From NCBI GenBank assembly GCA_008638015.1, contig VTPD01000004.1, forward strand, positions 1-59,539: DNA of 59,539 nt, given 5' to 3'. Origin of the DNA: Pelagibacteraceae bacterium. GTDB lineage: Bacteria; Pseudomonadota; Alphaproteobacteria; Pelagibacterales; Pelagibacteraceae. The notes under the pieces are model-generated. The model was given only the letters and a program-made list of their open reading frames with translations, had not been told where the DNA came from and ran no database searches. A program made the position numbers and the translations under genes. Below are positions 431 through 3,964 of this stretch, piece after piece; position 1 is the stretch's first letter, and every line of letters begins with the position of its first letter.

Positions 431-503
431 TTTCCGGTTAATCCACCGAAGAAACTACCTTTGCAGGACCGGGGGCTTACGCCATTTTCTTCGTGCGAAA
501 TTT
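431..503 (-). promoter_or_regulatory. structured rpsB leader RNA with candidate pseudoknot
   Basis: The roughly 80-base leader in front of rpsB folds strongly for such AT-rich DNA. An 8-bp perfect stem pairs 486-493 with 447-454 (CGAAGAAA with TTTCTTCG). It encloses two small hairpins with GNRA loops: GGC-GTAA-GCC at 474-483 and CCT-GCAA-AGG at 458-467. A CCGGT segment at 468-472 between them can pair with ACCGG at 434-438, just before the start codon, giving a pseudoknot. An alternative local hairpin, CGGT with ACCG, competes for that last strand. Structured rpsB leaders are known in SAR11 and other alphaproteobacteria and are thought to bind S2 for autoregulation. The fold is read from the sequence; its function here is inferred. 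Confidence 0.8.
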
Positions 504-508
504 ACGCT

Positions 509-536
509 CTTATAAAAGAATGAAAAATTAAATCAA
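509..536 (-). promoter_or_regulatory. candidate sigma-70 promoter of rpsB
   Basis: Reading on the minus strand, a TTGATT -35 box (531-536) lies 16 bases from a TATAAG -10 box (509-514). This places the transcription start near 500-503, directly in front of the structured rpsB leader. The -35 box begins only five bases after the dnaE stop codon. The position and box quality fit a dedicated ribosomal-protein promoter; no experiment is implied. Confidence 0.6.
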
Positions 537-541
537 GACTA

Positions 542-3500
542 TTAATTAATTATTTTTGCTAAAAAGTCATATTTTTCAAGGTTTTTTAGCGATTCATTAT
601 CAATTTTTCTCTTATTCTTTAGTTTAAAAATATACTTATTATTTTTTGACACATAATCTAAAATTACTGAGGTATTGCCCTCCTTTATAAGATTTAATTT
701 TAATTCAGATAATTTAGCAATATTATCTACATTTATTGATACATCATTAATTTTTTTTTCTGAGATTTCCTCAATAGGAAAAATTCTAGAAACATTTGTT
801 CGCTCTATGCCTGTTTTTAAAGTTTCACGCTTAACATTAATTAAAAAAGATTTTCCTGGTTTCAATTTATCTCTATTTGTTACTAATAATTCTGAAAAAA
901 TAAAAAATTCAAACATTCTACTTAAATCACTAAACTTAACTATTGCAAATGGCATGCCTTTAGCAGTTTTTTTTTCTTGAATAGCCATAACAGTACCCGA
1001 CAACATACATTCTTTCAAATCAACATCCTCTATAAAGCTTTGGTAATTTTTAACATTATAACTTTCTAGTGTTTGCCTAAAATTTTTAAGAGGATGATCA
1101 CTTACGAAAAACCCTATTGACTCAAACTCTCTCTTAATTTTTTCAGATTGATCCCAATCATTTAATGAAGAAAAACTTATTTTAAATTCTTGATTTGTTG
1201 AAGTATCAAATAAATTAATTTGATTTAATTCATCAATTTCATCAAAATTTTTTGCTTGTTTAATAATTTCAGGAACATTTTCAAATAATTTTGCCCGATT
1301 TTTATCTAAACAATCAAAAGCTCCTGCTTTTACAAGACCTTCAAGTTGTAATTTATTTATATCTTTACTGTTAACCCTTCTTATAAAATCTTCTAATGAT
1401 AAAAATTTACCATTAGTTTCTCTTTCATTAATCACATTTGATATGGCTTCGTAACCAACTGCCTTGATAGCTGATAAAGCATAATAAATTGTATTTTCTT
1501 TTGGTAAAAAATCAGCAAATGAATTGTTTATACAAGGTGGGTAAACATTAATAGAAAGCCTTTTTAACTCCTCGTAATATTGATTTAGTTTATCAGTATT
1601 AGACATCTCCATGCTCATAGAAGCAGCAAAAAAACTCAAAGGATAATGAGTTTTTAAATATGCAGTTTGATAAGCAATTAGAGCATATGCTGCAGCATGA
1701 CTTTTATTAAATCCATACTGAGCAAATTTTTCAACAAGTTGAAATATATAAATAGCTTGATCTTTGGCTATGCCATTATTTACTGCACCCTCAATAAAAT
1801 CTTTCTTCTGCTTTTCCATTTCTGCAGATTTTTTCTTACCCATGGCTTTTCTTAAAATATCAGCTTTACCCGCTGAAAAACCTGACAAAACTTGAGCAAT
1901 CTGCATCACTTGCTCTTGGTAAATTATAACTCCATAAGTTTCTTTTAAAATGTGTTCTATTTTAGGATGAAGATACTCTGGAGTTTCAATTCCATGTTTT
2001 CGGTTATTGTAAGTTGGAATATTTTGCATGGGACCGGGTCTATATAAAGCAACCAAGGCAATAATATCTTCAAATTTATTTGGTTTCATTTGTTTTAAAA
2101 CCTCTCTCATACCAGTACTTTCTAATTGGAATATTCCCATAGTTTCACCGGTAGTTAAAAGCTCAAAAGTTTTTACGTCATCTAATGGAATTTTTTCTAT
2201 TTCTAAATTTTCATTGTTTTTTTTAATTAACTCTATTGTTTTTTTAATTACTGTAAGAGTTTTAAGACCCAGAAAATCAAATTTAACTAATCCTGCTTCC
2301 TCAGACCATTTCATATCAAATTGTGTTACGGGAATTGGAATGTTAGAATCATGATCTTTATATAAAGGAACAATCTCAGTTAAATCTTTATCACCAATAA
2401 CTATTCCTGCTGCGTGAGTTGCAATATTTCTATATAAACCCTCCAATTTAAGAGCAAGCTTAACCAATTTGTCTATTACCGGATCTTCTTTTTGTGCCTC
2501 TTGAATTCTCGGTTCCATTGCAACAGACTCAGCTAAAGACAAGGGTCTTGAAGGATCAAAAGGTATCATTTTTGAAAGTTGATCAACTCTACCGTACGGA
2601 AGACCTATTACTCTTCCAATATCACGTAATGCCATACGAGCTTGAAGTTTTCCGAAAGTAATAATTTGGGCAACTTTATTTACATATTTATCTTTCACAT
2701 AATTTATAACTTGGTCTCTGTCTTCTTGACAAAAATCTATATCAAAATCTGGCATTGAAATTCTATCTGGATTTAAAAATCTTTCAAAAATTAAACCAAA
2801 TTTAATTGGATCTAAATCTGTAATGGACAAACACCACGCAACTAGTGACCCTGCTCCAGAGCCTCTACCCGGACCTACTGGAATATTATTGTTTTTAGCC
2901 CATTTAATATAATCAGAAACTATTAAAAAATATCCAGAAAATTTCATTTTGGATATCATTAAAACTTCATAATTAAGTCTATCCTCATATTCTTTTGTAA
3001 TTTTTTTTATTTGATCATTGTCACTAATATTTTTTAAAACAAAATCTTTTAGTTTTATTTTTAGACCTTTTTCAGCCTCAGATTTTAACTCATCGTTTAC
3101 ATTTGATAATTCAGTGCTAAAATTTGGTAGCATGGGCTTGCTGCTTAAGGGTCTAAAATTACATCTTAATTTAAGACTATAATTATTTTCCAAGGCTTCA
3201 GGTAAATCTGCAAAAAGAGACTGCATTTCCTCATGAGATTTTAAATAGTGTTGATCAGAATATTTAAGACGTTTTGGATCATTTACATAGGTTTTTTGAC
3301 CAACACATACATAAGCATCATGCGCCTCATGCATATCTTGAGTTAGATAAAACACTTCGTGAGTAGCAATTAAAGGTATTGTAAATTTTTGACTTAATTC
3401 TAGTAATTTTAACTCTAAATTTTTCTCATGTTCTTCATTGTGTCGTTGTATTTCTATGTAAGCGTTACCTTTAAAAATATTTTCTATTTTTTGTAGTAAA

Positions 3501-3964
3501 AAGCTAACTTCTAATGAATTTCCACTTAATATTAATGAAGAAATTAATGATCTTGATCCACCAATTAAAATAATTAAACCTTCAGAATATTGAAATAACT
3601 TTTCAATGCTACAATGTGGATCTTCATTTTTTTCAATAGATAAGTAAGAATTAGAAGAAAGTTTTAAAAGATTCTTATAACCAACAGAATTTTTTGCAAT
3701 TAAAGAAATTTTTCCTATTTTTTCTAAATTATTATGAGAGAAAGAAAAATTTATTTGTGTTCCTATAATAGGCTGTGTTCCAGATTTTGAAATTTCTTGA
3801 GAAAACTCTAAGGCTCCACATAAATTTAAAGAATCTGAAATACCTACAGCTTCGATTTTTTTTTCCTTACAAAATTCACTTAGCTCATTAATTTTCAATG
3901 CCCCCTCGCAAATTGAATACTGAGTATGAATTTTAATATGATTGAAGTTATTTTTTAGATTCAT
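542..3964 (-). CDS. dnaE: DNA polymerase III alpha subunit
   Basis: This is the catalytic subunit of the replicative DNA polymerase. The 1140 aa length is normal for DnaE1. The N-terminal PHP domain starts near residue 10 with IHTQYSICEGAL, close to the family's H-x-x-YS-LLEGA pattern. The polymerase core carries PGRGSGAGSLVAW and the catalytic PDFDIDF motif at residues 405-411, with the third acidic site in TQFDMKW. The region HAAAYALIAYQTAYLK is also diagnostic. The C-terminal OB fold is present (MPFAIVKFSDLS). The gene overlaps lolD by one base (stop of lolD with start of dnaE) and is the last gene of the long minus-strand run before the rpsB promoter. Confidence 0.98.
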   Translation of the reverse strand: MNLKNNFNHIKIHTQYSICEGALKINELSEFCKEKKIEAVGISDSLNLCGALEFSQEISKSGTQPIIGTQINFSFSHNNLEKIGKISLIAKNSVGYKNLLKLSSNSYLSIEKNEDPHCSIEKLFQYSEGLIILIGGSRSLISSLILSGNSLEVSFLLQKIENIFKGNAYIEIQRHNEEHEKNLELKLLELSQKFTIPLIATHEVFYLTQDMHEAHDAYVCVGQKTYVNDPKRLKYSDQHYLKSHEEMQSLFADLPEALENNYSLKLRCNFRPLSSKPMLPNFSTELSNVNDELKSEAEKGLKIKLKDFVLKNISDNDQIKKITKEYEDRLNYEVLMISKMKFSGYFLIVSDYIKWAKNNNIPVGPGRGSGAGSLVAWCLSITDLDPIKFGLIFERFLNPDRISMPDFDIDFCQEDRDQVINYVKDKYVNKVAQIITFGKLQARMALRDIGRVIGLPYGRVDQLSKMIPFDPSRPLSLAESVAMEPRIQEAQKEDPVIDKLVKLALKLEGLYRNIATHAAGIVIGDKDLTEIVPLYKDHDSNIPIPVTQFDMKWSEEAGLVKFDFLGLKTLTVIKKTIELIKKNNENLEIEKIPLDDVKTFELLTTGETMGIFQLESTGMREVLKQMKPNKFEDIIALVALYRPGPMQNIPTYNNRKHGIETPEYLHPKIEHILKETYGVIIYQEQVMQIAQVLSGFSAGKADILRKAMGKKKSAEMEKQKKDFIEGAVNNGIAKDQAIYIFQLVEKFAQYGFNKSHAAAYALIAYQTAYLKTHYPLSFFAASMSMEMSNTDKLNQYYEELKRLSINVYPPCINNSFADFLPKENTIYYALSAIKAVGYEAISNVINERETNGKFLSLEDFIRRVNSKDINKLQLEGLVKAGAFDCLDKNRAKLFENVPEIIKQAKNFDEIDELNQINLFDTSTNQEFKISFSSLNDWDQSEKIKREFESIGFFVSDHPLKNFRQTLESYNVKNYQSFIEDVDLKECMLSGTVMAIQEKKTAKGMPFAIVKFSDLSRMFEFFIFSELLVTNRDKLKPGKSFLINVKRETLKTGIERTNVSRIFPIEEISEKKINDVSINVDNIAKLSELKLNLIKEGNTSVILDYVSKNNKYIFKLKNKRKIDNESLKNLEKYDFLAKIIN

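Follow-up and report, generated by a model that had tools for sequence, protein, structure and literature searches.

The locus between dnaE and rpsB in a Pelagibacteraceae genome raises the question of whether the short stretch preceding the gene for ribosomal protein S2 encodes a regulatory RNA leader, to which family such a leader would belong, and how it would act on translation initiation. The window (the whole stretch of DNA that was analysed, 59,539 nucleotides of contig VTPD01000004.1, assembly GCA_008638015.1) carries this gap on its minus strand, between dnaE (542-3964) and the rpsB start at 425, and there it reads ...TTTCGCACGAAGAAAATGGCGTAAGCCCCCGGTCCTGCAAAGGTAGTTTCTTCGGTGGATTAACCGGAAAAAAATATG. 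A leader of the rpsB-motif type (497-434) immediately precedes rpsB on this strand, and its parts are listed in Table 1. Our main reading, to which we assign a probability of roughly 0.85, is that a pseudoknotted fold of this leader, stabilised by S2, would block initiation.

Table 1. Features of the rpsB leader region in the window.
Feature	Positions	Strand	Basis or remark
Possible promoter TTGATT-16-TATAAG, just upstream of the leader	509..536	-	Sequence; would put the transcript start near 502
rpsB motif (RF01815-type S2 leader): P1 around P2 and P3, plus H-type pseudoknot	434..497	-	RF01815, SAR11 model R1, covariation
P1 lower extension, 5' strand CGC, beyond bulged A494	495..497	-	Covariation; same pairs in RF01815
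P1 5' strand, 8-bp core	486..493	-	CGAAGAAA (read 493-486), perfect complement of 447-454
P2 hairpin GGC-GUAA-GCC	474..483	-	Sequence; GNRA loop in the window
Pseudoknot 5' strand CCGGU, between P2 and P3	468..472	-	Complementary to 434-438
P3 hairpin CCU-GCAA-AGG, short	458..467	-	Sequence; GNRA loop in the window
P1 3' strand, 8-bp core	447..454	-	TTTCTTCG (read 454-447)
P1 lower extension, 3' strand GUG	444..446	-	Covariation; same pairs in RF01815
Pseudoknot 3' strand ACCGG	434..438	-	Complementary to 468-472
rpsB, ribosomal protein S2, cut by the contig end	3..425	-	TIGR01011, E 5.6e-54; start ATG 425-423

The perfect 8-bp outer stem claimed by the original prediction was recovered, and three further pairs that it had missed follow past the bulged A494 (C495-G446, G496-U445 and C497-G444), so that the element starts at about 497. 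Among 5000 dinucleotide-shuffled versions of the leader, 6 contain an 8-bp stem around a GC-rich 5-mer that can pair with the 3' tail; the folding energy of the leader itself is unremarkable (z -0.64) and uninformative as evidence. The decisive evidence for the predicted structure is comparative, and comes from 71 aligned SAR11 leaders, 69 of them distinct. Across the distinct leaders the nested structure accumulates 160 cells with two-sided changes, compared with 53.6 in shuffles (none of 500 as high) and at most 26 when the partner strand is slid; the alignment behind these counts was fitted to the structure, which favours it, and a first MAFFT alignment gave the same picture. P1 is paired in 94.8% of cases, with two-sided changes at seven of its ten pairs; in the sister family C497-G444 has mostly become A-U and G496-U445 mostly U-A, with 11 two-sided cells each. 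P2 is 88.9% paired and has two-sided changes at all three pairs; P3 is 77.8% paired, and its third pair is poorly conserved. Both hairpins in the window do carry the GNRA loops that had been pointed out from its sequence. As a family feature these loops were ruled out, as they occur in only 4 of the 71 leaders for P2 and 5 for P3.

The rpsB motif was first described in 2009 by Meyer et al. in Ca. Pelagibacter ubique and marine metagenomes, in the position dnaE-rpsB according to their table; their text gives it a long P1, with P2 and P3 short in SAR11, and a pseudoknot in which the P2-P3 junction pairs with a 3' extension of P1 (PMC2704228). Our analysis found the same organization in the window: the dnaE-rpsB position, a long P1 that ends in a junction bearing P2 and P3, a pseudoknot between that junction and the 3' extension of P1, and GGUGGAUUAACCGG at the place of the conserved GGuGGauUAACCGG on the 3' side of the consensus. 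The Rfam model RF01815 matches the window at 497-419, with 34.2 bits (E 5.3e-5), which lies below its gathering cut-off of 40 bits. Of 61 genomes of close relatives that were searched, not one reached this cut-off, as against 73 of 289 other Alphaproteobacteria. Since the close relatives also remain below 40 bits, the threshold, and not the window copy, is behind the shortfall, which we read as a bias of the model towards longer P2 and P3 rather than as absence of the element. The Rfam cut-off thereby shuts out SAR11, the very clade in which the motif was discovered. Of 247 genomes of the order, 205 contain a match (E up to 0.001) to a covariance model that we built from 21 SAR11 leaders (R1); this model gives the window leader 96 bits, the window sequence being among those used to build it. 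The element is thus a known kind of leader, another copy of the described rpsB-motif family, as had been proposed; the window copy differs from the published motif in its score (34.2 against 40), in the GNRA loops of its P2 and P3, and in a pseudoknot that coincides with the Shine-Dalgarno (SD) position, a placement shared by nearly all the SAR11 leaders analysed.

Judged by the S2 protein, the nearest of the named genomes is a Pelagibacteraceae assembly (89%), followed by the single-cell genome SCGC AAA028-C07 (81%), which we take to be of the freshwater LD12 type. In the same-genus relative L144, tsf comes after rpsB. The sequence also suggests a separate promoter for rpsB, located between dnaE and the gene: TTG-N17-22-TRTAW, a pattern chosen after looking, is present in 53 of 69 relatives against 5.3 expected, and most of these pairs begin 40-51 nt from the end of the region analysed. 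A standard promoter scan did not report 509-536, and the standard consensus showed no excess over shuffles.

The pairing of CCGGT with ACCGG near the start codon had been proposed from the window sequence, together with a check for covariation at 468-472/434-438. Within SAR11 the strands are virtually invariant, being CCGGU/ACCGG in 70 of 71 leaders and CCGGU/ACCGA in the remaining one. We consequently rely on upstream regions gathered throughout Pseudomonadota by S2 protein or Rfam match, in which the strands vary widely (UCGGU/ACCGA, CUGGU/ACCAG, CCAGU/ACUGG, CCGAG/AUCGG, CCGGC/GCCGA, GGGGU/ACCCC and AUUGU/ACAAU). In 44 diverse leaders, 206 of 220 cells hold standard pairs, whereas shuffling whole 3' strands gives a mean of 150.8 and a maximum of 173 (5000 shuffles), and none of the five pairs lacks a two-sided change. 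It is important to note that the strands behind these counts were picked out by eye and subsequently confirmed to occur in the right order at each locus, with leaders lacking a clear reading left out (L205 and L186, for example), which may bias the set towards pairing, and that the shuffling ignores relatedness; nonetheless, the changes occur in several separate lineages. An automatic strand extraction, in which several leaders were mis-anchored, still yielded 38 pairing leaders against a shuffled mean of 21.6 and a maximum of 32. An Escherichia leader shares this layout, with the pseudoknot GGGGU/ACCCC, and this strand pair is present in 61 of 65 further loci, nearly all Gammaproteobacterial. 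These comparisons indicate that the pseudoknot of the rpsB leader is real: all five pairs covary outside SAR11, and SAR11 itself is invariant. Neither of the outcomes named beforehand as counting against the original prediction, a lack of covariation or of any match to an S2 leader model, was observed, since P1 and the pseudoknot covary and RF01815 matches.

A second pairing had been read as a switch between open and closed ribosome-binding states. CGGU (448-445) can also pair with ACCG (438-435), and a two-state leader would alternate between this hairpin and P1 plus the pseudoknot. The pairing is indeed possible in the window, where a pseudoknot-free ViennaRNA calculation that includes the start of the coding region gives it a probability of 0.8. 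Its conservation, however, is unsupported: among the 69 distinct SAR11 leaders it shows zero two-sided changes and loses its U-A pair in 21, it is complete in only 3 of the 44 leaders sampled across the phylum, and both of its strands are already accounted for by P1 and the pseudoknot. The two alternative pairings are therefore not both kept by compensatory change, and we regard a conserved switch as very unlikely. The competing pairing is a by-product of a P1 that ends in GG and of the CC in the pseudoknot strand; in the window sequence it may form by chance, with no sign of selection.

The geometry around the start codon sets the SAR11 leaders apart. In the window a spacer of 8 nt separates ACCGG from the rpsB ATG, and the GG of 434-438 together with A433 is the only SD-like stretch before the start. 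Over the 71 SAR11 leaders this distance is 3-12 nt, mostly 8, and in 68 of them the GG of the pseudoknot strand and the bases following it are the only SD-like bases (GGA in 51, GGAG in 17); of the others, two carry AGGA within the spacer and the third lacks SD-like bases. In other Alphaproteobacteria, in contrast, most spacers are 13-21 nt long and contain an SD of their own, with AGGA, AGGAG or GAGG in 50 of 70, some of these spacers having been matched at the wrong place by the pattern. In SAR11 the predicted pseudoknot thus overlaps the probable ribosome site, unlike in most other Alphaproteobacteria. We found no statement of this overlap in the openly readable literature, and it may be an unreported feature of the lineage. 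One same-genus leader (L143, genome G005, 1404-1499) has ACCGA, which removes the outermost pair of the pseudoknot as well as the single SD-like GGA. The leader is nevertheless kept, a point against our main reading, and this natural variant would be useful for testing.

In a group outside Alphaproteobacteria (L120, L125, L126, L131, L132, L188 and L196) the pseudoknot is AUUGU/ACAAU, or has GUUGU at some of the loci; almost all of the sequence is changed, with pairing kept. Several of these loci have GGAG or a similar sequence right after the 3' strand and, given these loci, the overlap of ribosome site and pseudoknot may have arisen more than once.

The window's genome assembly did not yield its own 16S rRNA, and the anti-SD was therefore read from three relatives, whose 16S rRNA ends in the usual CCUCC. 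SD-like triplets or longer stretches precede 14 of 54 genes in the window, about 9 being expected from shuffles, so that few genes have one although the relatives keep CCUCC. Given this scant SD use, covering the GGA may matter less than covering the initiation region.

According to our main reading, the 5' end of the mRNA would form P1 around P2 and P3, and the linker joining P2 to P3 would pair with bases shortly ahead of the start codon. When free S2 is in excess it would bind, probably together with S1, and stabilise this pseudoknotted fold, which would cover the bases 9 to 13 nt upstream of the AUG, including most of the only SD-like GGA; ribosomes would be blocked from initiating, and rpsB and the downstream tsf would be repressed. 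The structure, its covariation, the family match, the gene context and the geometry are established here. The reading as an S2 leader draws on the RF01815 match on the right strand and in the right place, and on the dnaE-rpsB context like that of P. ubique; by homology with E. coli, S2 is probably the ligand and repression the outcome, and we infer that the block is exerted through the pseudoknot itself.

In E. coli, the rpsB 5' UTR mediates repression of rpsB-tsf by S2 with help from S1, and the operator includes neither the SD nor the start codon (PMC10931766). This operator shares its architecture with the window leader and differs in the first two pseudoknot pairs (G-C for C-G), in a longer P1, and in a separate ribosome site further downstream of the pseudoknot. 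With the SD outside the E. coli operator, a steric block by the pseudoknot need not be the ancestral mechanism. S2 could likewise recognise the SAR11 leader and repress, together with S1, from the P1/bulge region, as thought possible in E. coli, with no role for the pseudoknot in covering the ribosome site. The bulged A and its flanking CAC/GG are among the most conserved bases of the leader, and in E. coli control can be lost when a conserved bulge distant from the ribosome site is deleted (PMC10931766); the SAR11 spacer of about 8 nt and the missing separate SD in 68 of 71 leaders, however, would place a stable pseudoknot inside the initiation region, and we consider repression from P1 and the bulge unlikely, though still worth weighing. 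Our literature search for binding or expression results on SAR11 S2 leaders found none, a point against our main reading and in favour of a purely structural 5' end, whose role would be to protect the mRNA or assist initiation without any control by S2. The family-wide position before rpsB and the demonstrated S2 control of the homologous E. coli leader (PMC10931766) speak against this, and we give it hardly any credence.

For the pseudoknot block that we favour, the SAR11 geometry invites an evolutionary account, which we offer tentatively and hold to be plausible rather than probable: genome streamlining in SAR11 would have fused two elements that were once separate. The downstream SD seen in other Alphaproteobacteria would have been lost, its function passing to the GG of the pseudoknot strand, and an operator acting at a distance from the ribosome site would have become a direct block.

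Our study draws on many more genomes than the 2009 description and confirms the pseudoknot of this widespread autoregulatory leader. To the published description it adds two-sided changes for all five pseudoknot pairs across the phylum, support for the P1 extension, the dismissal of the switch, and the overlap specific to SAR11. The compact SAR11 version could help to clarify the mechanism by which S2 represses translation, a point reported to be unclear in E. coli, and, if the fusion of the two elements is true, S2 would control initiation in these organisms by pure occlusion.
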